Of a stretch of 20,905 nucleotides of DNA, positions 3,366 through 20,905 are shown in pieces (within the stretch, counting starts at the first letter, position 1; every line of letters begins with the position of its first letter). The stretch spans positions 1-20,905 of the IMG/VR virus record IMGVR_UViG_3300032315_001242; one strand, given 5' to 3'. The notes under the pieces were generated by a model. That model ran no database searches, was not told where the DNA came from, and saw only the letters and a program-made list of their open reading frames with translations. Source of the stretch: a virus. Made by a program: the position numbers and the translations under genes.

Positions 3366-4421
3366 TTAGGTTGAACTAAACCTAATTTCGCGTTCCATTA
3401 ATTGTTTAAAGGGTAAAAGATAATCTAAGTTTCTATTGCTACCGATTGTTCGGTCTAAACCATCTATCTTCATCTTTTGCATAACATTTTTAATACCTCT
3501 GTCCGAAGTGTCAAACTGACCATCAATTAGAAAATTAAGATTATTAATTGATGTCTCCGTCATTAAAGGATTTTTTAGGTTTACTAATTTTGTGTTTATC
3601 TCGTATAGTTTATCACCTTGTATACCATCTGTTACCCCATTTATAATATTATTAAGTGTTTTTAGTGGTGGTTTCTTAGCAACAATTCTTTCATTCTGTA
3701 GTTCTTCCGCTTTTTTAATTATCTCATCTAGCGTAAGTTTGCGTTCTTTTAACTCTGGAAATAATGAAATTAATGTTGTTTCTTTAACCCCCTTAACACC
3801 CTTTATACTATCACTATTGTCACCAATAATTGATTTAATCAAACCAGCATTAACGTAATGGTGTGTAAAATAATCGAAGTAATTATCCTTATCTACGTAA
3901 TTCCTTAAATCACAAAAATAGATTCTTACTCCGTCTCCAATCAATTGGCACATATCCCTATCTGTTGTACAGATGGTTATATTTTCATTATCATTTTTTG
4001 TTAAGCAACAGTAAGCGATAAAATCATCACTTTCAACAACATCATCCTTAATTTGACGAATACAAAGTTCTTCGAGATAATTCCAAACCATTAGTCTCTG
4101 TTTTAATTCTGATTCGTCAACTGGATGTGTGCCATTAATATAATCTTTACCACGACCAGATTTATAATCCTCATAGATTTCCCATCTTAGTTTACCACTA
4201 AGATTTCCATCCCAGAATACATAAACCCTGTGATATAAATTTTCATTAAGTAATTTACGTAGAATTGTAAGGAATTGGTATATTCCACCTATGTGCTCAC
4301 CTATATGATTAAATTCACTCTTGGCCCCGAAAAAGCCAAATTTAAATAAGGCATTTCCATCAACTAAGAGTGTATTAATCGGTTTAATTCTTTCACCATC
4401 TTTTGGTGGTCTTTTATTCAA
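3366..4421 (-). CDS. 5'-3' exonuclease/flap nuclease, T4 RNase H-like
   Basis: FEN/5'-nuclease that would remove RNA primers and flaps during lagging-strand synthesis. In the 351 residues the acidic metal ligands appear in the usual order: Asp21 (LLVDGNALF), Asp71 (VFWDGN), Glu130/Asp132/Asp133 (VVESDDFIA), Asp154/Asp156 (TTDRDM) and Asp201/Asp204 (GDNSDSIKGVKGV). The last of these opens the helix-3-turn-helix DNA-binding motif. YEDYKSGRGKD (83-93) is the basic bridge region. It is somewhat longer than T4 RNase H (305). The reading frame has no early ATG: the start is TTG at 4421-4419, preceded by a four-codon ORF (ATG at 4432) whose TGA overlaps it. The gene lies 25 bases after the recombinase stop, so they are co-transcribed. 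A related assignment as a free DNA polymerase I 5'-exonuclease domain has the same chemistry. Confidence 0.87.
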   Translation of the reverse strand: MNKRPPKDGERIKPINTLLVDGNALFKFGFFGAKSEFNHIGEHIGGIYQFLTILRKLLNENLYHRVYVFWDGNLSGKLRWEIYEDYKSGRGKDYINGTHPVDESELKQRLMVWNYLEELCIRQIKDDVVESDDFIAYCCLTKNDNENITICTTDRDMCQLIGDGVRIYFCDLRNYVDKDNYFDYFTHHYVNAGLIKSIIGDNSDSIKGVKGVKETTLISLFPELKERKLTLDEIIKKAEELQNERIVAKKPPLKTLNNIINGVTDGIQGDKLYEINTKLVNLKNPLMTETSINNLNFLIDGQFDTSDRGIKNVMQKMKIDGLDRTIGSNRNLDYLLPFKQLMEREIRFSST

Positions 4422-4446
4422 TTTGTTAACATTTGTGGTTAATCAA

Positions 4447-5547
4447 TTAACTTAACATATCTTCCGCACTAAAGCCTACTGATTCAGTTTCGATAATAAA
4501 ATCATCATATTCTGTATTCAGCATTTCTTTGATAAAATCTTTATGTTGAGTTTTATACTCATCGATTTTATCAGGATTCCAATAACCGTGCGGAGTAGAG
4601 GCTATTGTACCCTTTTGTTCAATACCATTTACTTGGTTCTTTTCACATCTGATTTTTGTTAAAACACCAAATTGATATTCTTCTCCTTGGAATGTTGCTT
4701 TTAACTTTTCAGTACTGTGAGTTAATATCCCACCAAAATGGAATATCATTCTTGGTGAATAGAAGAATGCTTCACCACCCTTATGTTTAATAACTTTATT
4801 CTCGTTATCTAACCAAATTTGTTGTACAACAGCAAATGTTGCACTATAAGGTGAATCTGTTCTTCTAGATGAAGGAATCCTGTAATTAATCAAAGATTTG
4901 AAACATGTTGCCAATGCACCAGCTGTCCATTGGTTGTTTGTTGTCTTTGATGTTGCACCCTTAAAACAGTTAATCGAACCAACTGAATCCCAAAAGAAAG
5001 CAACGTCTTGTTGAATCGTACCATCTTGTTGTTTATCTAAGATGTTGTGCATAAAGTAAGAAATATCCTCAACCACTGGTTCATATCTTAATGGTTTTGT
5101 TCCCATTTTACTATGTTGGTGGTCATAAGATTGATATAAGTTTACTAAATCTGGACCTTGTAAAAGCATAAAATCTTTTGGTTTATACCTTAATTCTCCA
5201 GTTTCAGTATCCACTTCTTCCCTAAGTTCAACACCTATTTTTTTTGCGTGTTCCCAATTCCAGTTACCTTCAGTTTCAAAAACTACTGCTAATACACCTA
5301 GTTTTTGACAACCAACAATAGCTTCATATATTGCGGTTGATTTACCAGTGTTTGAATAACCTCTGAAACTAACAAAATAACCCATTGGAATACCTGGAAC
5401 CTTAACCGCATCATGAAATGCTGGGGATAATGGAATCCATTTTAATTCTTTTTCTGTTATCGAACTATCAAGACCTTCATTTTTCATGAAATCGTCTAAA
5501 TTAAATTCCTTTTTAGGAATTATCTTTTTTTCTGGTTTTTTTGCCAT
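4447..5547 (-). CDS. uvsX: UvsX/RecA-like recombinase
   Basis: ATP-dependent strand-exchange protein that forms filaments on ssDNA for recombination-dependent replication and repair. It has 366 residues, close to T4 UvsX and bacterial RecA. The N-terminal helix region (about 1-45) precedes the RecA core, with Walker A GYSNTGKST at 63-71 and VVFETEGNW at 88-96, which holds the likely catalytic glutamate. DVAFFWDSVGSI is the Walker B strand. SSRRTDSPYSATFAVVQQIW and the following KGGEAFFYSPRMIFHFGG fit the L1/L2 DNA-binding loop part of the core. The start ATG at 5547 has an ACACA-rich leader without Shine-Dalgarno. It follows the ssDNA-binding protein gene across a terminator, so expression needs read-through or an unrecognised promoter. 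A T4-like family member is preferred over a bacterial RecA because of the divergent Walker A and the neighbours. Confidence 0.9.
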   Translation of the reverse strand: MAKKPEKKIIPKKEFNLDDFMKNEGLDSSITEKELKWIPLSPAFHDAVKVPGIPMGYFVSFRGYSNTGKSTAIYEAIVGCQKLGVLAVVFETEGNWNWEHAKKIGVELREEVDTETGELRYKPKDFMLLQGPDLVNLYQSYDHQHSKMGTKPLRYEPVVEDISYFMHNILDKQQDGTIQQDVAFFWDSVGSINCFKGATSKTTNNQWTAGALATCFKSLINYRIPSSRRTDSPYSATFAVVQQIWLDNENKVIKHKGGEAFFYSPRMIFHFGGILTHSTEKLKATFQGEEYQFGVLTKIRCEKNQVNGIEQKGTIASTPHGYWNPDKIDEYKTQHKDFIKEMLNTEYDDFIIETESVGFSAEDMLS

Positions 5548-5607
5548 TATGTATATATGTATGTGTTTATGTGTGTGTTAATATAAGTTGTACTAAAAAA
5601 AATATAA

Positions 5608-5633
5608 ATGGGTAGCAAAATATTACTACCCAT
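5608..5633 (-). terminator. Intrinsic terminator after the ssDNA-binding protein gene
   Basis: Perfect 8-bp stem (ATGGGTAG / CTACCCAT) with a 10-base loop, and a second 5-bp pairing (5601-5605 with 5636-5640) outside two A-A mismatches. On the minus strand the hairpin is followed within a few bases by a run of eight T (5603-5591). It lies 20 bases after the stop of the ssDNA-binding protein gene, so it would separate highly expressed single-strand-binding protein from the downstream recombination genes. Confidence 0.8.
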
Positions 5634-5652
5634 AAATATTTTGGGTTCTTAC

Positions 5653-6564
5653 TTAGAATGGTAAGTCTTCGTCTTCTTCATCATCTGAAGTTACTGGCAC
5701 CATAGGTGCAGAAGTTACAGTTGGTTCAGCTACAACTAGATTAGGTTTAACATTTGGTATACCTAAAGTTATTTCAGCTTCCAAATTATCGCTAACAACT
5801 GACTTAGATTGTGCTGCGTTTTTATCAACGAATTTCTTTAAGTCTTTATCCCAAACTGGAACACCACCTTTTACGATGATTTCAAGATAATCGTATGATT
5901 TAAGACTGTAAACATCTTCCCACGTTCTATTGTCAGCCACCCATTCACTTATTTTTGCTGAATCATCGCTTAATGGTGAAGGGTCAAGTGGTGCAATTGA
6001 TTGAACAACTGGTTTTCTGTTTTGGTCTCTAGCAACCATAACTAACAAATCACGACCAGTGTTTGTATCAGTAATGTTTTGTTTGATTGCTTGTAAAACA
6101 CCATAGATTTTATCTAGGATACCTTGTTTACGGTAATCATGCATGAATCTCCAGAATTTAGGACCGTGGTCTTCATTATCTCTGTCAATTACTTTTACAA
6201 TATACATAGGTCTAGCCTTGTATTTTTTTGCAAACTCTTTGTCTGATTCACTACCACTAGAATGTAACACATCATGCGCTTCACAAAACGGACATGGTTG
6301 GTTTTTTTCCTTCTGTAGACAAGCAAATGTTTTCCATTCTCCGTCAACTTGGATTCTGTGACCATAAACTTCAACAAATGGTGTTGTACCATCTGAGGTT
6401 GGTAAAATTCTTACTCGCTTGTTGGCCGAGTTCACCTTGTCTGGAAGATAGGTCGTGAAATAGTTGTTCAAATCAACGTTTTTCTTCTCAGTGTTTTGAT
6501 AACCATTTGATTTTGTTTCATACTGGTTAAGCATCGCCATTAAGGCATCTTGTTTTTGACTCAT
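5653..6564 (-). CDS. Single-stranded DNA-binding protein, T4 gp32-like
   Basis: Coats ssDNA and organises replication and recombination proteins. In the 303 residues (T4 gp32 has 301) the zinc ligands are clear: His69, Cys82, Cys91 and Cys94 (GHRIQ...FACLQ...QPCPFC). The spacing almost equals His64-Cys77-Cys87-Cys90 of gp32. The following KARPMYIVKVIDRDNEDHGPKFWRF belongs to the OB-fold core. The N-terminal 30 residues are basic/polar, as in the cooperative-binding B domain. The C-terminus is acidic and ends EDEDLPF, resembling the DDDIPF tip of bacterial SSB rather than that of T4. It is preceded by two candidate Bacteroidetes-type promoters and followed by a terminator, so it probably forms its own strong transcript. 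The start is ATG 6564 with an AT-rich leader. Confidence 0.92.
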   Translation of the reverse strand: MSQKQDALMAMLNQYETKSNGYQNTEKKNVDLNNYFTTYLPDKVNSANKRVRILPTSDGTTPFVEVYGHRIQVDGEWKTFACLQKEKNQPCPFCEAHDVLHSSGSESDKEFAKKYKARPMYIVKVIDRDNEDHGPKFWRFMHDYRKQGILDKIYGVLQAIKQNITDTNTGRDLLVMVARDQNRKPVVQSIAPLDPSPLSDDSAKISEWVADNRTWEDVYSLKSYDYLEIIVKGGVPVWDKDLKKFVDKNAAQSKSVVSDNLEAEITLGIPNVKPNLVVAEPTVTSAPMVPVTSDDEEDEDLPF

Positions 6565-8803: not shown

Positions 8804-11800
8804 TTATATTGAATTAACGTATCGTTTAAAATCACCAACAGTCAAAGCATCACCTGGTGTTTTTTTGTTTGTTGTAGCTATTTTTGGATTTTGTTTTGAT
8901 ATAATTTCAGCTGAAAGGTTATTAGATTGTATAATAGTTGTGTCACTACCATTTTTAAATATTGTAAAATATGCTGGAAAGAAAACTAAACTGTATATTC
9001 CTAACTTGCTACCATTAGTAATATCTTTATTAGCATTTTTCCAAAACTCAAAGTACATATCGACTAATTCAAGTTGTTCAACCCCACTCATTTTTTGAAT
9101 ACTTTCTAATGTGTAATTAGGGCCTGGCGTACCACCTTTTTTAACATTATCTGATGTCCATTGAATAAGACCAGTTGCAAATAAAATTGAATTTGGTTCG
9201 TAAGTCTTTACAAATTTTTTAGTGGTTTTATATAAAGAATCGGCTGGATTCATTTCGCACTCGGCATCAAATATACTTAATATGTCATCCTCACTAATTT
9301 TCCATTTATCACATAATTTTTTTAATCTATCTCTAAATGCAACATTGTTATATAATTTACTTCTCTTAATTTTGTTTATATTATTATTAACACTAGTTGT
9401 AGACACCCCATAGTTAAATGGTAATAAATCTTTTTTATAGTATATACCACCTGTTTTTTTAACGATGATTACAGGATTCATATCTCCAAATTTACCAACT
9501 TTTAAATTATCTTTATCGTAGTAACCACCCTTTAATATCATTTCGCCCTTTTTTATTGTATTACTTATATTACCACCACCAACGTAAGCTTTTTTATCGT
9601 TATCGGTATTATAAACCAAGTTGACATGTGAAATTTCACTTGTTGTTGCGTTATCTGTATAAATAATTAAGTCACCAATTTCAGCTTTAATATTTAATTC
9701 TGAATCACTTAATAAAAAAGATTCGTAACCACTAAGTCCTTTTAAACCATTTGCTGCAATTTCTGCCGATAAAGCTGTTTTAGGAAAGCTTTTATCTATT
9801 TTAGTCATTAAGTATGAAGCAAAAGAAGCGCACCATGGTGAATTAGGTAATGCATGTACAAAACTTAAGTAGTCTTTATTTATAATTCCTTGTTTTTCTT
9901 TTTCATCATCTGGTGTAATAAATTTAATAAATTTATTATATTCATCATTAAAATATCGTTCTAAATCTTTTGTTTGAACTGTTGTACCAGTTATTGTTTT
10001 TGGATTTGGTTTATTAGTAGATAATATATTAATAAATAATTTTATATCTTTAACGTAATCAATAACTTTTCCTAATGGTTGATTAGTTGTTGAATTTGGT
10101 AAATTATAATTATTCAAGATATCTTTAAATAATTTTGTTACATCAACTAATGGTGTTTTATTAATTTTAACCCTAGTCCCAGTAAATGTTGTTGTCATAT
10201 GATTTGGTACAATACTATGTTTTACCTTTGTAACTAAATAAGCACCATGAAACATTGGTATATTATTTAATTGAAAGTACATCATTGGTTGAATCATTGC
10301 ATCACCAAGCATTTCTACTTCAGCCTTATAACTTCTTACCGAATAAATATTATAAAGATTTTGCCCAGCATAAATATTATTTGGGTTATTAACTAGTTGG
10401 TCTGTAATTGATAAAGACTCAATCGTTTCACTAAACTCTGCTTGGTCTAATCTAACATCTTTAAAGATATTTTGGTTTTGATGACCATAGTTTACCAAGA
10501 AAGCAGCACCAACATCTTCCCATGGTTCTGGAGTTTCGGTAAAATCTGAAGGCATTCTAGTGCCGTCTTTTGTGAAATCAAAGCCATCATTATCAAATTC
10601 AAAATTTTGATTATCTGAAAAGTCTAATTTTGTTGAGGTTTGTCCAATATAAACACATACAAATGACGGTCCAGTTTCAGTTAATTCATTTGCTTCATAA
10701 TAAGGGTATGGTTTAAATACCGTCATTAATTCTTCAGGCTTATTATAATTGATGAAATTTGGTAAGGCGATAAACTCCATATTATTATCACTTAGTATTC
10801 TACTAATCAAATCAGCTAAACTTGTATTACCAGAATTATCTAATAATAATTTAACAACCATAAATGGATTTATTGCTAATTGATTACCAATATCATGAAA
10901 TGCTCTATCAACAAATCTAAAACTATCAATTAATTTTGGGATTTCACCCTTATTACCTGTTCTATGTTCAGCAAGTTGTGTATCTTTTGGTAATCTCTTT
11001 TCTTTACCCTTACAACATTGAAAAAATAATTCAGTTGAATCGTTTTCTGAGAGTGAAATCCATTTATCGTTTATTTTTTTTAATGTACGATATATTTCAA
11101 ATTTTAAATCTTCAAATTTTGTATTAGAAAATTTATAAGTTGTTAATTCTTTATTTTTTGCTGCAATACCAGTAATAATTTCAGTAAGATAAATTTTTAA
11201 TTTATTCTCATTAATAGATACAGTTTGATAACTACTTATATTGTTATCCCAAATCATCCAAGAATTATTAATTATATACTTATAATCTTTCATCCATTTA
11301 ACAATTTGTTTCGATGCTTCTGAATCATCACTATATTCTATAAAATAATTATAATTAGAAAATGTTTGATAGCTATCTGAACTAGTTTCTTTTGGAAAAA
11401 TAATATAAAATTTATTTAGTTGTTTTATGTCATTTTCATTATTACTATTTTTTGGGAGATTCAAGTACCCGTCAAATTCATTAAACGGAATAGAAATGGT
11501 ACCATCTTTAGATGTTTTAAAATTTTTATTATATTCATAACCAACAGAAGATTTATTTTTAATATAAACAGGAACACCATCCGTTGTGGTACCAGTTAAT
11601 ATTTCATTATATGTTTTTTTCCATTCATTATCATTATTTGGTAGTACTTTGGTATTTACTTCAAATTTAGACCTATTATCACCAAACTCTTTAACAAAAT
11701 TTTTAAATTCTTGTATAAACACATCTTTAACCTGTCTAGGTAAATTAAGTATTATAGAATCAATTTTAGTATACTCTGCCGAATCAACACTAATATCAAT

Positions 11801-14800
11801 TAATAAACTTAACGGAGCTTGTTGTCCTCTATGATAATGTAAATATTCATCTTTTTTTGGTTTAATAAGCGGTTGTTTTTCACTTGATTTAAAAAGCGAT
11901 TGATTATTTGCACTGAAAAGAATTATATCATCATTTTGCTCATACCTATATAATAATCCACCAATAAACGCTGAATATAAATAAGGTACTTGTATAAAAC
12001 CAGTGTATATATTAAATACATTTTGTATGTAATTATTGTTAAATAAAGATTCCCCATTTTTTTTATTCGAATAAAGTCCATTCCAAGGTAAACAATGTAA
12101 AAACAAAAACGCTCTAGCCTCATTAGTTTGTTGAGCGTTATAAAATCTACTACCAAACAAACTATATACTTGAGTAGAATATGTAAAATTTACAAATGGA
12201 TATGAAAGTTGTTCGTTAGATGATAATAAAAATCTGTTCTTACTAATTTTAGGTCTGTTCTTTAAATCAACAAAAAAATTTTCCCGATTAAGTACGGTAT
12301 TATTATAGAAAACTGATTTTGTATTTGAGATATTATAATTAATATCTAATGTTTCACCAGATAATTTTTTATCTGATAGCGAACCATATGTATAAAATAT
12401 GTTACGACTTATATTCGTAAGTGCATCAGCTAATTCATCATTATAAAAAACAGTATAAAAATCACTTGATTGGTTATTAGAATTTGGATAGATAATCGAT
12501 GTAAAATCTTGTGCGCCAAACCTACCACTACCAATTTGAAACTTAGCCTTTTCCGCTGAAAATGGACTAGTACTTAACCCATCAAAGTTAATTGCTTGTG
12601 ATGACTTACCACCATTATTATATGTGTTCCTATCAATAATTTCAATAAAATTTATATTTTGAGTTGGTGTACTTTTTTGTTCATTATTCTTAATATTAGA
12701 TAATCTATATATTGGTTTACCCTTACTATTTGTATTGGTTCTTAAATAATCATCTATGTCACCCTCAACTTTATTAAATGGGAATGTTATTGGTAACGCT
12801 GCTGGATATTTACCATTCCATGCTGAATTTTGTTTTATATAATCATAATTATATTTATCATTACTCTTATTGAGAATCTTTTGTGAGTCACCAACTGTAA
12901 ATGGTTTATCTGTTTGTTCTAAATATTTAATAGCTTCGTTATAATTAGTGGTTAAGTATCCAATTATATTTTGATTTATACTAAATTTATCAAGAAGAAG
13001 TCTAGCATCATTTTGTGCAAAACTTTTAATTTCATCATCTGTTATATAATTACCATTATTACCAAATCCTAATAAACCAATTGCGCGTAATAATATTAAT
13101 GTTGCTATATCATTACCATTTGCATTATCATCCAATCTATCGTAAGGATTTTTTTCACCCTTATTGTAATAATTTGAATCTAATGGTGTAAATGCTTGAT
13201 TAATAATAGAATTATCTTCTAACAAATTTTTTGCCGAATCTTCAATTTGTTTAAGTTTTGTTTGCTGAATAATAAACAATTCCTCAACAAATTTAATTTC
13301 ATCAACATTGGATGGATTATCTAATGCTGTTGCTAAGTATTTTTCTTCACGATTTTCATAATATTCTGGCCAAGGTAAAAATGTATTTTTTTCTATAAAT
13401 TTCTTTGGTACATCAATACCAGTACCAGTGGTATTATTTTTAAATTTATTACTTAATTCCGTTGTTCTAATTTTTGATTTTTGAGATTGTTGAGATACCT
13501 CTAATAATTGTTGTAAGAATACTTCAACATTTGTTGTTAATAAATTAAAGATATTTCTAATTGTCATATCAAAACCTAATTCTTTTTTTAATTTATCATT
13601 AAGTTTAATTGCAATATTTGTTTTTGTTGTTTCTTGAATTTTCTCTAACTCTTTAATACTTTCATTTACTTCTTTTATAATACGAGTAAAGTTATATGAA
13701 TCAACAGGTGTTGTTGACGCATTACCATCTAATGCGTTTTTATATGGTGCTAAGTATTCATTAATATTATTATCAATATCTTGTTCTTTATATAATCCAT
13801 TACCAAATTTAACAAGCGATAACGCGTTATTTTTAAATTTATCTTTAATAAATGTGTTATCACTACTCGTAAATCCAGTAACATTTATTAATACATCAAA
13901 TGTATAACAAGTATTTTCTAATGAAATTTTTTGGTCACTCTTATAATCACCTAAGTTATTGTTAAATTCACTTTTTATTTTGTATAAATCTACTATAAAT
14001 TCATCATATATTTTTTTTGTTGTTAAATTATTGACTATTATATCATCCTTACAATTAAGAATTACAATGGCTAAATTTGGGTCTCCAAGATTAACATTAA
14101 TATTATCTTTATTTTTATTTATTATATAAGAATCAAAATTAGTTGTAAATTTACTAATTGTACCATCAATAAGTGTTAATACTTCAGTTTTTAATTTATT
14201 AATTAATTCTTGAGTCTTATTTAGTGCCATTACATCCGTATCGTTTGCTGTTAGCACTTCCTTTTTAATTAATTCATTTACCTCGCCAACTCTTTTTTCA
14301 AAAGTTGGTATATCAATAACACCTCTCGCTTTAAGTAACTCTTGACCTCTAGTTGTTAATGAAGCTGGTTTAACTAACCCCATTATCATATCCGATAACA
14401 TCGCATATGTATATCCAATAAATTGTGTTGCTATCTCAAAATTACCAGTTTGAGAATTAAATTTTGAATTAAATTTAATCAAATGAAGACAATAAACAAC
14501 TGGCTTACCATAATACCCTTTAATCTTAAGTCTAAATAAGGGATATGGAAGACTGAAGAAAACACTATACTTTGAATTACCTTGACTTTGAAAAATAGCG
14601 GCACCTTTAACATCAATAAAATTAATATTAACCATTGGTGTATATGATGAATTAAAATCAATATCAATACTTGTTATACCTAACGCTTCTTCAATTGGTT
14701 CATTTTGAGAAAACATATCAGTATAACTTGTTGTTAAATTTATGTTTTCATTTGCATTATCAGTTGACTTTTTTTCATTTGTTCCACCAATAAACTTAAC

Positions 14801-15067
14801 CGTAACATTATTTCCCTTTGTATTGATTACTGAGTTACCATTATTAGTTGTAAGTATTGTTCTAGTTTTTGCTTCAGTTTCTAATTCAACACTTATACAT
14901 AAATCCTCGAGTGGCACTGATATATTATAATTGTTTTCACTAAACATATCTTCACCAAGTTCTTTATTAAAAACAGAACCTGTGTTTGTTTGATTACCAA
15001 AACTATTTGGGTCTATTAAATTAAATCTTCCTAATTGTGTTATCGCATTATTCGTATTATCCGCCAT
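8804..15067 (-). CDS. Giant baseplate hub-like protein with two C-terminal cell-wall hydrolase domains
   Basis: A 2087-residue protein, probably the central baseplate hub with built-in lysins for penetrating the cell wall. Residues about 95-235 (GITSIDIDF...YGKPVVYCLHLIKF) look like a tail/baseplate beta domain. About 1200 residues of unrecognised, Asn-rich sequence follow. Residues about 1570-1635 (YSVRSYKAEVEML, MYFQLNNIPMFHGAYLVTKVKH, MTTTFTGTRVKI) resemble the barrel of gp27/gpD-type hubs. Residues about 1704-1866 resemble a CHAP/NlpC-P60-type peptidase, with Cys1746 (PWCASF), His1814 (SHVNLV) and possibly Asn1833 (GGGN). Residues about 1900-2050 resemble a lysozyme/SLT-like glycosidase, with Glu1936 in FDAECEMNP and GLIQ at 1966-1969. 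Its ATG overlaps the LysM-like gene by 11 bases. In T4 these tasks are split between gp27 and gp5. Hub and enzyme assignments are by pattern only. Confidence 0.75.
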   Translation of the reverse strand: MADNTNNAITQLGRFNLIDPNSFGNQTNTGSVFNKELGEDMFSENNYNISVPLEDLCISVELETEAKTRTILTTNNGNSVINTKGNNVTVKFIGGTNEKKSTDNANENINLTTSYTDMFSQNEPIEEALGITSIDIDFNSSYTPMVNINFIDVKGAAIFQSQGNSKYSVFFSLPYPLFRLKIKGYYGKPVVYCLHLIKFNSKFNSQTGNFEIATQFIGYTYAMLSDMIMGLVKPASLTTRGQELLKARGVIDIPTFEKRVGEVNELIKKEVLTANDTDVMALNKTQELINKLKTEVLTLIDGTISKFTTNFDSYIINKNKDNINVNLGDPNLAIVILNCKDDIIVNNLTTKKIYDEFIVDLYKIKSEFNNNLGDYKSDQKISLENTCYTFDVLINVTGFTSSDNTFIKDKFKNNALSLVKFGNGLYKEQDIDNNINEYLAPYKNALDGNASTTPVDSYNFTRIIKEVNESIKELEKIQETTKTNIAIKLNDKLKKELGFDMTIRNIFNLLTTNVEVFLQQLLEVSQQSQKSKIRTTELSNKFKNNTTGTGIDVPKKFIEKNTFLPWPEYYENREEKYLATALDNPSNVDEIKFVEELFIIQQTKLKQIEDSAKNLLEDNSIINQAFTPLDSNYYNKGEKNPYDRLDDNANGNDIATLILLRAIGLLGFGNNGNYITDDEIKSFAQNDARLLLDKFSINQNIIGYLTTNYNEAIKYLEQTDKPFTVGDSQKILNKSNDKYNYDYIKQNSAWNGKYPAALPITFPFNKVEGDIDDYLRTNTNSKGKPIYRLSNIKNNEQKSTPTQNINFIEIIDRNTYNNGGKSSQAINFDGLSTSPFSAEKAKFQIGSGRFGAQDFTSIIYPNSNNQSSDFYTVFYNDELADALTNISRNIFYTYGSLSDKKLSGETLDINYNISNTKSVFYNNTVLNRENFFVDLKNRPKISKNRFLLSSNEQLSYPFVNFTYSTQVYSLFGSRFYNAQQTNEARAFLFLHCLPWNGLYSNKKNGESLFNNNYIQNVFNIYTGFIQVPYLYSAFIGGLLYRYEQNDDIILFSANNQSLFKSSEKQPLIKPKKDEYLHYHRGQQAPLSLLIDISVDSAEYTKIDSIILNLPRQVKDVFIQEFKNFVKEFGDNRSKFEVNTKVLPNNDNEWKKTYNEILTGTTTDGVPVYIKNKSSVGYEYNKNFKTSKDGTISIPFNEFDGYLNLPKNSNNENDIKQLNKFYIIFPKETSSDSYQTFSNYNYFIEYSDDSEASKQIVKWMKDYKYIINNSWMIWDNNISSYQTVSINENKLKIYLTEIITGIAAKNKELTTYKFSNTKFEDLKFEIYRTLKKINDKWISLSENDSTELFFQCCKGKEKRLPKDTQLAEHRTGNKGEIPKLIDSFRFVDRAFHDIGNQLAINPFMVVKLLLDNSGNTSLADLISRILSDNNMEFIALPNFINYNKPEELMTVFKPYPYYEANELTETGPSFVCVYIGQTSTKLDFSDNQNFEFDNDGFDFTKDGTRMPSDFTETPEPWEDVGAAFLVNYGHQNQNIFKDVRLDQAEFSETIESLSITDQLVNNPNNIYAGQNLYNIYSVRSYKAEVEMLGDAMIQPMMYFQLNNIPMFHGAYLVTKVKHSIVPNHMTTTFTGTRVKINKTPLVDVTKLFKDILNNYNLPNSTTNQPLGKVIDYVKDIKLFINILSTNKPNPKTITGTTVQTKDLERYFNDEYNKFIKFITPDDEKEKQGIINKDYLSFVHALPNSPWCASFASYLMTKIDKSFPKTALSAEIAANGLKGLSGYESFLLSDSELNIKAEIGDLIIYTDNATTSEISHVNLVYNTDNDKKAYVGGGNISNTIKKGEMILKGGYYDKDNLKVGKFGDMNPVIIVKKTGGIYYKKDLLPFNYGVSTTSVNNNINKIKRSKLYNNVAFRDRLKKLCDKWKISEDDILSIFDAECEMNPADSLYKTTKKFVKTYEPNSILFATGLIQWTSDNVKKGGTPGPNYTLESIQKMSGVEQLELVDMYFEFWKNANKDITNGSKLGIYSLVFFPAYFTIFKNGSDTTIIQSNNLSAEIISKQNPKIATTNKKTPGDALTVGDFKRYVNSI

Positions 15068-15377
15068 ATAATAATTTGTATTTATTTACTTCGTTTTTAT
15101 ACCTATTAATCGCACTTTCGAACGGAAACGGTATTCTTATAATTGTTTGGTCTGGTATGTTAAACTCTAAGCCACCAAATTCTGGGTTAGCTTGCATAAT
15201 TAACCAACCAAACAATGGATTATTATAATACAAGTTACTGATTTTGTCAAGCCTTGTTTCACCTAACTTATAAATAATCCTTTTATCTGAAGTTTGTTCT
15301 GGTATATTAATACCAGGTAAGGGTTTAATATCATTATTTACCCTAAATTGACTGTATCTATCGTAATAATTTGGCAT
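15057..15377 (-). CDS. LysM-like baseplate protein (T4 gp53 / P2 gpX-like)
   Basis: A small structural protein of 106 residues, likely part of the baseplate. The core (about 34-84) reads IIYKLGETRLDKISNLYYNN...WLIMQANPEFGG...IPDQTIIRIPFP. This matches the LysM-like tail protein pattern: a G-x-R-L-D-x-I turn, a Tyr-rich stretch, an aromatic helix, a conserved Asn-Pro, and a closing strand with Pro. P2 gpX and T4 gp53 carry such LysM folds and work in baseplate assembly. Here the fold more likely mediates protein-protein contact than peptidoglycan binding. The gene lies 17 bases after the 1535-residue baseplate protein and its last codons overlap the hub start by 11 bases, so the three are co-translated. 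Confidence 0.75.
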   Translation of the reverse strand: MPNYYDRYSQFRVNNDIKPLPGINIPEQTSDKRIIYKLGETRLDKISNLYYNNPLFGWLIMQANPEFGGLEFNIPDQTIIRIPFPFESAINRYKNEVNKYKLLYGG

Positions 15378-15394
15378 ATATTATTTTATTTAAA

Positions 15395-18300
15395 TTAATC
15401 TGTCCATTGATAAAATGTTTCATAATATAGGTATTCTGTACCGTCAATGTTTATTTGTATTTTTTTGGTGTCACCAATTTTCATAATATTCTTAGATTTA
15501 AACGTATCCATAATTTTAGTATGTTGGGCCATAAATCTGTTAAAGGTGTCACTTTGATTTGCTAAAGTACCTATACTACCCCTAGCATCAAAATGTTTGT
15601 AAGAAAAATTATTAGCAGTTGAATATATCGTAGCACTTAATTTTGTTGTAGCATCTTGTGTATTTGTATCATATACTGTTTGCATTGAAATATTTTTAAC
15701 GGCAACACCGTTATATTTTTTTAATTCATCACCAACTTGTTCTGAGAAATCATTACTAATTCTAGCACTAGATGCTGCACCATGAATATCATCGAGAAAT
15801 TTATCATCCGTTTTTTTATTAACAGTATTTGAATAAAATATTGTGTGATTTACTTTTTCATTTATTGTTGTTGTAGTACTAACTGTTGGTGTAGTTCCAC
15901 TACAATTTGATTCAAATTCTGTGAGTGTATCAACAGCAAAAGAAGTTTTATCATCACTATATAAATCGACTAAAAATGTATAAGTAACACCGCTACTTAA
16001 ACCAGTGCAAGTTGGTGTCATATCTGAAAGATTGAAGGTATAGTTCCCAAACGTATTAGTTTGACCAAATAAATCCCATTCTGGGTTATCTACTATTTCA
16101 TAATTTTCCTCTGTTTCATCATTATAAATAGTAACAGATACTTTATAATCTTTTGAAAGAGTACTACTTGGATTTATTAATTCTAAGTTAAATGATATAT
16201 CCGTATTACCACTTAAACAAGCTGTATCAGCTGTAAAGTTTGTTACCTTTACATTTTTATTATCTGGTAATGCTTGTGGTTGATTTGCTGTGCTATTAGC
16301 CAAATCAGCTGATTTTGTTTGGTCAATTTGTGCTGATATTGGTAAGTTATTTAATTCATCATCAGTCAATACACCCATTGATTGTGTATATGGATTCATA
16401 CCTCGAACTAATGAATAATTTAATTCACTTTGATTTTCAGTACCATTGGTTATTCTGGTAATTTTTGCACCAGGTTCAAAATTATTAGAGAATGAATCAA
16501 TCACGACATCAGCTCTAGGGTCATAAACTTGTGTATTTGCAAAGAAGTTAAATGAAAGAGCATTTTGTAATTTATTTATTGGACTGTAAAGACTTGAACC
16601 ACCAATATACTTAAATGAAATTGTTACATTTGCAATCATTGGTTGAATGCCTATACCCTCTGGATTAAGGTCCCACAATTGGTCTTCAAAGGTAAAGCTT
16701 ACATTATCCATCATAATTTTTGTATTATAAAAATCACCTATTCTAAGTATACAAACTGGTGGTACACCAAATGCTAAATTAAATGGTTCGCTAGTACTTT
16801 GTGTTGCACCTTGTCTAGTACATTGTAATAAAAATGTTAGTCTTGAGTTAAGTCCTTCTGGTGTCATTGAATGAAACGCTGGATGGAAATATCTAATTTT
16901 TTGTCTAATTCTATCAAATACAAATTCATCTTCCTGTTTAAGTTTTTCAAAAAAGTTAGCTTCATTGTAAAATCTTTTTCTAACATTTTCTGTAATTTGA
17001 ACTCTATCAGTAGATGCTGGTTTATCAATTACTTTTTTAGTTCCAGTTACTATTTGTTTTGCGTCTCTTTTAATATTAACAATAACACTTCTATCTTTCT
17101 TTTGTGGTTCACCACTAACATCACCTGTTTGTGGGTATTTAGCTCCAGGTACTACCTGTGGGTCTAGTAATTTAAATCGCTTATCACTAATACCGATATT
17201 ATCAATTAACCATTGTTTAAAATTTTTAGCTCTATTTTTTGCCAATTTTTCATTAACCAACTTTGTTTTTCCAGCTGGTGCGAAAGCACCTTGATAAGTT
17301 GCCGTTCCTTGAAGTTCAAATTTTAAATCAGGATTATCATTAAAGAGTTGTTTTAACTTATCTTTAAAATCTTGTCTATTCCATGTTATTGAATTATAGT
17401 AATCAGTTTCGTAATTACTACCATCAAAAAGTGTAATTTTTTTAGTATTTAACTCAAAATTTCTATTATCATCAAATTTTTCATTTGAATTTTCACCATT
17501 ATAAATTCCACAACCATTAAAATTATTATTAGTTAATATTGTAGGTGTTAACAGTGATTTTTTAAACTTTGTTCCTTCATATGGTATACCATTAAGACTT
17601 ATTATTGTTTCAATCTTAGATATATCATTTGGAAAGTATACATTAAAAGTATCATTAACTTCTGGTTGTGTATCATACTGTGGTTCATCCTTATATGTTG
17701 GTGGTGTTTTTTTAACAGATAACAATTCATCTGGTGTTAATCTCTTACTCCATTTATTACTTAAATCAACACAACCAGCAAACCAAGAACGTATAAATTC
17801 ATCATCAGGGCCGTCATTACCAGCAAATGCATTCATAATACTTGGATGGTCAATAATAATCTTAAATGATAAATTACCTGTTCTTTCTGTATTATTATAT
17901 GTATAAATTGGTTCACCTCTACCAATAAAGTTAGTTGATTCTAAATTAACAGAACTTGATTCACTAAAGGTTAAATCATAAGGTGGAAACCACATAATTC
18001 TACCAAACTTACCTGTCAATAAATCACCTGGTCCTTGTTCCACTGGTAATAAATTAGCTGCTGGTGTACCAGCCCAAGCTAAGTTTTCAATTGAAAACAT
18101 ATACTTCTTTGGTTGACTAGCAACTCTAGTTAAATCATCATCTTTATATGGTGCAATTTTAGGAAATCCATTATCATCTAATACAGAACCGTCATAATTT
18201 AATCGCCAATTATTATTTAATATTGATGCATCGTTTTGTTCGCCCCTATTTAACCCTCTGTTTCTAATTAGTTTACTAACTGTGTTATATCTATCATATG

Positions 18301-20226: not shown

Positions 20227-20905
20227 TTATATATTATTTCTTTTAATATTCCTATTATTATAACTACAGAAAGGTCGTAAATTAGTGAAGTGGTTCAATT
20301 TAGTCAATTCAATTTCATTATCTGCTGAAGATAAAGGTATTATATGGTCAATATCCCAACCATAATTAAACTGCCCATTATACAAACCGTAATTATCCCA
20401 ACTCATCCAAAATTCAAATTTAGACTCTAAGTAACATTTAAATTCTTCAAAAGAACATCCAAGAATTTTTTCAGTTTTAGAATTTTTACGATAGCCTTTA
20501 TTTTTAAATGCATTATTTATTAATGAACGTAAATTTCCAGATAATTTGATTAAATTATTTTGTTTACGTTTATTTCTAACATATAGATTAATTTTTTCTT
20601 TATTTTTATTACGATATTCTTTTTTCTTTACTTTTAAAATATCTTTATTTTTATTATAATATTCTTTTTGATAATCTTTTAACTTATTATTATTTTTATT
20701 AATTTTATAATATTCTAATGATTTTTTATTAAGTTTTTCTTTATTATTTTTATTATATTTAACCTTAGTTTTTTTAATTGTTTCAGAGTTAATTTTATCA
20801 GATGTATATTCTCTATTATAATCAGCTACTTTTTCTTTATTATTTAAATACCATAATTTTTTACGTTCTTTAAATTTTAGTTTATTTTTTTCATAGTATT
20901 GTTTA
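20227..20905 (-). CDS. HNH endonuclease, 3' part, probably homing-type
   Basis: The reading frame is open at the right edge (5' end missing) and ends with TAA at 20227-20229; 225 residues are visible. The last 50 residues form an HNH nuclease core: GWDIDHIIPLSSADNEIELT, with the catalytic Asp-His pair, then NHFTNLRPFC and a final Asn/Arg-rich SYNNRNIKRNN. The part upstream (about 120 residues) is Lys/Asn/Tyr-rich with imperfect repeats of type EYxxKNKEK, a likely helical DNA-contact region seen in phage HNH proteins. Codon use is even more AT-rich than in its neighbours. It is a free-standing gene beside the tail operon, not fused to anything visible. A selfish homing endonuclease is the likeliest role; a packaging nuclease is less likely. 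Confidence 0.8.
   Translation of the reverse strand, partial: KQYYEKNKLKFKERKKLWYLNNKEKVADYNREYTSDKINSETIKKTKVKYNKNNKEKLNKKSLEYYKINKNNNKLKDYQKEYYNKNKDILKVKKKEYRNKNKEKINLYVRNKRKQNNLIKLSGNLRSLINNAFKNKGYRKNSKTEKILGCSFEEFKCYLESKFEFWMSWDNYGLYNGQFNYGWDIDHIIPLSSADNEIELTKLNHFTNLRPFCSYNNRNIKRNNI

Follow-up and report, generated by a model that had tools for sequence, protein, structure and literature searches.

Whether a fold that holds peptidoglycan in bacterial proteins can still grip the cell wall once it is part of a phage particle, or has become building material, is the question raised by one tail gene of an uncultured virus. The window analyzed here, i.e., the whole stretch of 20,905 nucleotides from IMG/VR record IMGVR_UViG_3300032315_001242, encodes a protein in which the initial annotation recognized an OmpA-like domain; it took the protein for a baseplate component and proposed that the domain either docks the baseplate to the wall during puncture or serves only as a structural module. 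Both the domain and its baseplate setting are borne out by PF00691, a profile search of the PDB, two structure models and the tail-gene context, and of the two proposed roles the structural one fits the results better. The features of the protein and of its neighbors are given in Table 1.

Table 1. Positions in the window of the tail protein, its parts and the adjacent genes.
Feature	Position	Strand	Basis
2087-aa neighbor, weak CHAP/peptidase similarity near C-terminus	8804..15067	-	CHAP E = 0.063; phrog peptidase E = 4e-4
106-aa neighbor, baseplate wedge subunit-like	15057..15377	-	phrog_7145 E = 1.1e-4
Tail/baseplate protein with OmpA-like domain, 1535 aa	15395..20002	-	single ORF
Conserved core, first half (residues 645-763; GRIMWFPPYD, FIGRGEPIYTYNNTER)	17714..18070	-	invariant alignment columns, A2/A3
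Probable beta-1 of OmpA-like fold (residues 783-793, NDTFNVYFPND)	17624..17656	-	predicted strand
Insertion between beta-1 and helix 1 (residues 794-876)	17375..17623	-	WD40 repeats here in some relatives
OmpA-like domain, helix 1 to beta-4 (residues 873-979)	17066..17386	-	PF00691, PDB profile, fold search
GTATYQG loop (residues 899-905)	17288..17308	-	motif position in ORF
Thr902, site of the diaminopimelate-binding Asp	17297-17299	-	family alignment
Kept pocket motif Asn917-x-x-Leu920-x-x-x-Arg924	17231..17254	-	family alignment
DRSVIVNI, beta-4 (residues 970-977)	17072..17095	-	strand in both models
Conserved core, second half (residues 1006-1165; FHPAFHSMTPEG, WDLNPEGIG)	16508..16987	-	invariant columns, A2/A3

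Taken alone, the PF00691 match of the window protein is borderline at the sequence level: it covers residues 873-968 with E = 4.2e-4 and reaches 21 bits, under the curated cut-off of 27.2. As a single sequence, the protein has no match in the PDB. The PF00691 match is more than a chance similarity, because the same family is found in 30 of 43 homologous domains on their own (E <= 0.01; best E = 2.9e-10), a profile of the homologous domains retrieves OmpA/Pal chains from the PDB (best E = 9.3e-8, Capnocytophaga OmpA, 5wtp), and two AlphaFold2 models, built with 47 and 90 sequences, agree with their fold matches; a chance origin is ruled out by this profile and fold evidence. The models, which were assessed via confidence, secondary structure and fold matches rather than by coordinate inspection, have pTM values of 0.40 and 0.49 and a core that lacks high confidence throughout in either; the OmpA-like stretch has a pLDDT of about 85-98 in both, and the annotation's expectation of an OmpA fold is thus supported by prediction. 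All PDB matches of the first model at E <= 0.001 are OmpA/MotB/PorE-type domains, and those of the second at the same threshold are OmpA-type domains together with one chain of the Legionella Dot/Icm outer-membrane complex. On profiles and predicted structures, residues 873-979 are a genuine OmpA/Pal/MotB-type domain inside a phage tail protein.

The assignment of this protein to the baseplate is well supported by gene context. In all four relatives inspected (L001, L006, L025, L033) the next gene is an ORF of 105-106 aa. The genes upstream in L006 match tail tube, baseplate hub, T4_baseplate and tape-measure families, and the 2124-aa protein that is syntenic with the 2087-aa neighbor matches the endolysin family phrog_7 (E = 1.8e-13) and has endolysin-like ends. 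T4 gp25 was considered as the identity of the 106-aa neighbors; the comparison was not significant. No LysM match was found in the window protein or in the neighbors scanned.

The OmpA-like domain interrupts a highly conserved core and sits between its two halves; the mean share of the commonest residue is 0.68 in the core vs. 0.36 in the domain (A3 alignment). The first half of the core has weak fold similarity to tube proteins of contractile injection systems, and in a BFVD fold search the core matched the N-terminal domain of a CIS tube protein (E about 1.4e-2) and, at E 0.1, a gp48-like protein. The core may therefore be a tube initiator or centrepiece, as far as the models go. This identity is weak, since the fold matches reach only E about 0.01 and single T4 sequences provide no profile support: hhalign of the core against gp48, gp54 and gp53, a weak test, gave probabilities below 2%. 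Nothing firm emerged from hhalign when gp5, gp27, gp51 and gp26 were considered along with these three, nor from PHROGs.

The annotation described the domain as opening with a "beta-helix start", a loose label; its first strand (beta-1) probably lies upstream, at residues 783-793, and the domain is therefore probably longer than was first drawn. A strand is predicted there in both models (block pLDDT 95-97), the FxND motif of the putative beta-1 is kept across the family, and the first model aligns with 3td3 over 199 columns in Foldseek (TM 0.66-0.70), which suggests that these residues are included in the fold; the best fold alignments of the second model are shorter, and the beta-1 assignment is not certain from them. 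Beta-1 so placed would be parted from helix 1 by an insertion of ~80 residues. In TagL and its relatives the loop between beta-1 and helix 1 borders the peptidoglycan-binding crevice (PMC8253398), so, by analogy, an insertion beside the crevice may hinder wall binding.

WD40 repeats precede the OmpA-like helix 1 in three relatives (L060:3928-9267, L061:7962-11306 and L067:7638-12689), with six or seven stretches each (PF00400, E 5e-60 to 2e-78); L061 ends before helix 1 is reached. L063 and L064 have other long inserts at the same place, which are not WD40-like by eye.

The motifs named in the annotation are where it put them, with GTATYQG at residues 899-905, LAKNRAKNF starting at 920 (which places the Arg of the RA helix at 924, as stated there) and DRSVIVNI at 970-977. 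It had also noted that the acidic residue of the usual TDxxG is not evident, and this holds well beyond the window: the site, Thr902 in the window protein, is non-acidic in each of 114 family domains (non-redundant at 80%), of which 104 have Ser, 4 Thr and 2 Asn, 4 show a gap, and not one has Asp. The NxxLxxxR motif is kept, with Asn in 107/114, Leu in 109/114 and Arg in 114/114, although only profile-detected copies were counted, which is a bias in favor of the motif, and the figure for Arg in particular should be read with caution, since degenerate copies that escaped detection do not enter it. The residues through which TagL contacts its ligand are Asp486, Asn494, Leu497 and Arg501, and wall binding by TagL requires five residues, Asn494, Leu497 and Arg501 among them (PMC8253398). 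Asn917, Leu920 and Arg924 of the window protein correspond to these last three. As judged by sequence alignment, the diaminopimelate pocket is altered: Asn, Leu and Arg are in place, and Asp is replaced by Thr902. In A. baumannii OmpA, D271A and R286A proteins showed that both residues are critical for diaminopimelate binding (PMC6572160). Replacement of the Asp in every copy detected makes a reused building block more likely than a working wall anchor.

Cellular OmpA domains with Ser at this site exist as well. Ten were found by eye when Bacteroidota genomes were searched with the phage profile, a share that is uninformative on Bacteroidota at large because the phage profile selected these domains. 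Each of the ten has a Glu or Asp two residues later (by eye). At that position the phage copies mostly have Gln, Pro or another non-acidic residue, with Asp in 5/114 and Glu in none. A tree made quickly from the phage and Bacteroidota copies of this short domain places some phage copies near the Ser-type cellular ones, a placement that is not taken as evidence of origin.

The window protein belongs to a large family. Viral-contig searches started from the window protein and three relatives, with genome loci added, yielded at least 173 distinct proteins with the core. When four family members were compared by tblastn with 50,697 phage records, none had a match; domain-only searches gave only weak matches, of which a Salmonella OmpA family protein (E 5e-3) was the strongest. 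The phages with this tail protein are apparently a large, uncultured group, and the apparent lack of full-length relatives in the 50,697 phage records marks a common tail type that, in these searches, is apparently still without structure or genetics. Five loci lie in species genomes, on contigs from Bacteroidales and Paludibacteraceae bins, from a Mycoplasmatota MAG and from a Prochlorococcus single-cell genome, which are weak hints to the host. Two predicted structures in BFVD from uncultured Caudovirales phages are of note: A0A6J5L6C4 looks like a family member, and A0A6J5KTY6 (a 411-aa model) is a phage protein named OmpA-like.

The OmpA-like domain is present at the same place in at least 145 of the 173 core proteins (i-E < 1e-3). 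A broader profile detects it in 16 of the other 28 and misses 12, of which five are fragments or split ORFs (L061, L064, L065, L073, L239), five belong to the L084-like clade (L182, L183, L184, L187, L190), and the remaining two are L169 and L231. When read, L182, L183 and L190 look like degenerate versions of the domain. L231 lacks it and has a 162-residue low-complexity stretch instead. The domain is thus usual in the family but not indispensable, given the degenerate copies in one clade and its absence from L231. The low-complexity stretch of the latter (L231:4916-5700) holds TEGVFPGNT twice. Cysteines also vary among relatives: 38 of 90 have a Cys around window residues 884-899 (A3 alignment), and 36 of 90 have a CxxC somewhere in the aligned region, often as KCPHCxV right before the GYAS loop; the window protein lacks it.

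We consider it probable that the OmpA fold, a peptidoglycan-binding fold, has here been put to structural use in a contractile baseplate. The core would form a ring around the hub as a baseplate centrepiece or tube-initiator-like protein, and the OmpA-like domain would project from this ring as a protein-protein joint to adjoining baseplate parts. The structural reading is favored because the Asp is lost, the crevice-side loop is probably long and tolerates WD40 repeats, and the domain varies more than the core, degrades in some copies and is absent from L231; it is favored also because of the tail context, the weak CIS-tube-like fold of the core and the LysM precedent in contractile baseplates. 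The LysM fold is a structural part of such baseplates: in Milano, PVC and AFP the centrepiece carries it as a C-terminal domain (PMC10811340), and in A-1(L) subunits of the wedge, the sheath initiator and the tube initiator surround it (PMC10966104). The OmpA fold would have been recruited as structural material in a similar way, comparable to LysM in T4 gp53, PVC, AFP and Milano. The structural reading has most difficulty with the conservation of Asn, Leu and Arg, since near-invariance of these residues at low overall identity would be unexpected in an idle pocket unless they are structural. The cluster may hold the fold together, or it may bind a protein group, e.g., a carboxylate, rather than the diaminopimelate of the cell wall. 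The hydrolase-like domains in neighboring proteins would also fit a wall-contacting role, against the structural reading.

Such a role, in which the domains, arranged as a ring, would take hold of peptidoglycan once the tail has reached the wall and keep the baseplate steady during cutting by the tail hydrolases, appears unlikely to us. It draws on the endolysin/peptidase-like domains of the large neighboring proteins and on the binning of related contigs with Gram-negative groups (Bacteroidales, Paludibacteraceae, Prochlorococcus), the wall of which contains m-DAP. It draws also on the pocket Asn, Leu and Arg, all three of which are needed for cell-wall binding in TagL (PMC8253398), and on the occurrence of Ser-type OmpA domains in Bacteroidota proteins; in this reading the Ser-type pocket would still bind a stem peptide, possibly in another way. 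However, the Asp that is replaced in 114/114 phage copies corresponds to D271, which A. baumannii OmpA needs to bind diaminopimelate (PMC6572160), and the ten cellular Ser-type domains keep a nearby Glu or Asp at a position that is acidic in only 5/114 phage copies. Moreover, the long loop with its insertions probably lies beside the crevice, degenerate copies exist, and L231 does without the domain. Overall there is no positive evidence for wall docking, and the literature searched on OmpA or WD40 in phage baseplates holds no report of such an arrangement or of a wall-docking step. In its more specific form, with the pocket shifted to a Ser type and the OmpA-type domains set in a ring that takes hold of the host wall at puncture, wall docking is rather doubtful.

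The variability of the domain also bears on a further explanation, in which the domain and its inserts are variable outer surfaces through which the baseplate contacts fibers or the host envelope, the OmpA fold being a mere scaffold. The domain and loop are far more variable than the core (0.36 vs. 0.68), insert lengths span 162-971 residues among the 112 measured, and three relatives have WD40 repeats. Yet fold, place and the Asn-Leu-Arg cluster are kept in most of the family, which is more than a freely exchangeable module would need, and we regard this display role as improbable.

Compared with the PF00691 family (A. baumannii OmpA 3td3-3td5, Capnocytophaga OmpA 5wtp, PorE, MotB, TagL), the phage domain shares the fold, the helix-strand order from helix 1 to beta-4 and Asn-x-x-Leu-x-x-x-Arg, but it has Ser/Thr in place of the Asp of TDxxG and, probably, ~80 extra residues between beta-1 and helix 1. 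Also, the PF00691 proteins are periplasmic, whereas the phage domain is part of a tail protein presumably made in the cytoplasm. The Bacteroidota Ser-type domains (GYASPEG/GHASSEG; e.g., L251, L254, L261, L264), which are among the top-scoring cellular matches of the phage profile, resemble it in having Ser for Asp; unlike the phage copies, which are mostly non-acidic there, the ten examples have an acidic residue two positions later. LysM baseplate domains (BW4) likewise put a peptidoglycan-binding fold to use in the baseplate, and some systems have it fused to the centrepiece, but the two folds are unrelated, and LysM is located at the C-terminus of the centrepiece while the OmpA-like domain is inserted within the core. 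TagL of the type VI secretion system likewise ties an OmpA-like domain to a contractile machine; it is, however, a cellular membrane protein with an intact pocket, by which the machine is fixed to the cell's own wall (PMC8253398), whereas the phage domain is part of the particle itself and its pocket is altered.

If the structural reading is true, contractile baseplates would contain a second cell-wall-binding fold besides LysM. The choice between wall anchor and building block is directly testable with the isolated domain, because the family offers natural comparisons: copies with Asn-Leu-Arg, degenerate copies, one protein that lacks the domain, and members that contain WD40 repeats.

The remainder of the window, also on the minus strand, encodes replication and recombination genes at 3366-6564 (a 5'-3' exonuclease, a UvsX-like recombinase and a gp32-like single-strand binding protein) and has partial ORFs at both ends. 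The ORF at 20227-20904 has an HNH-endonuclease-like end (WDIDHIIPLSSA... NLRPFCSYNN; by eye). The ORF at 2-1348 resembles, by eye, the large subunit of ribonucleotide reductase with an intein-like stretch inside it (GTKVL... and LCGWLTGDGW).
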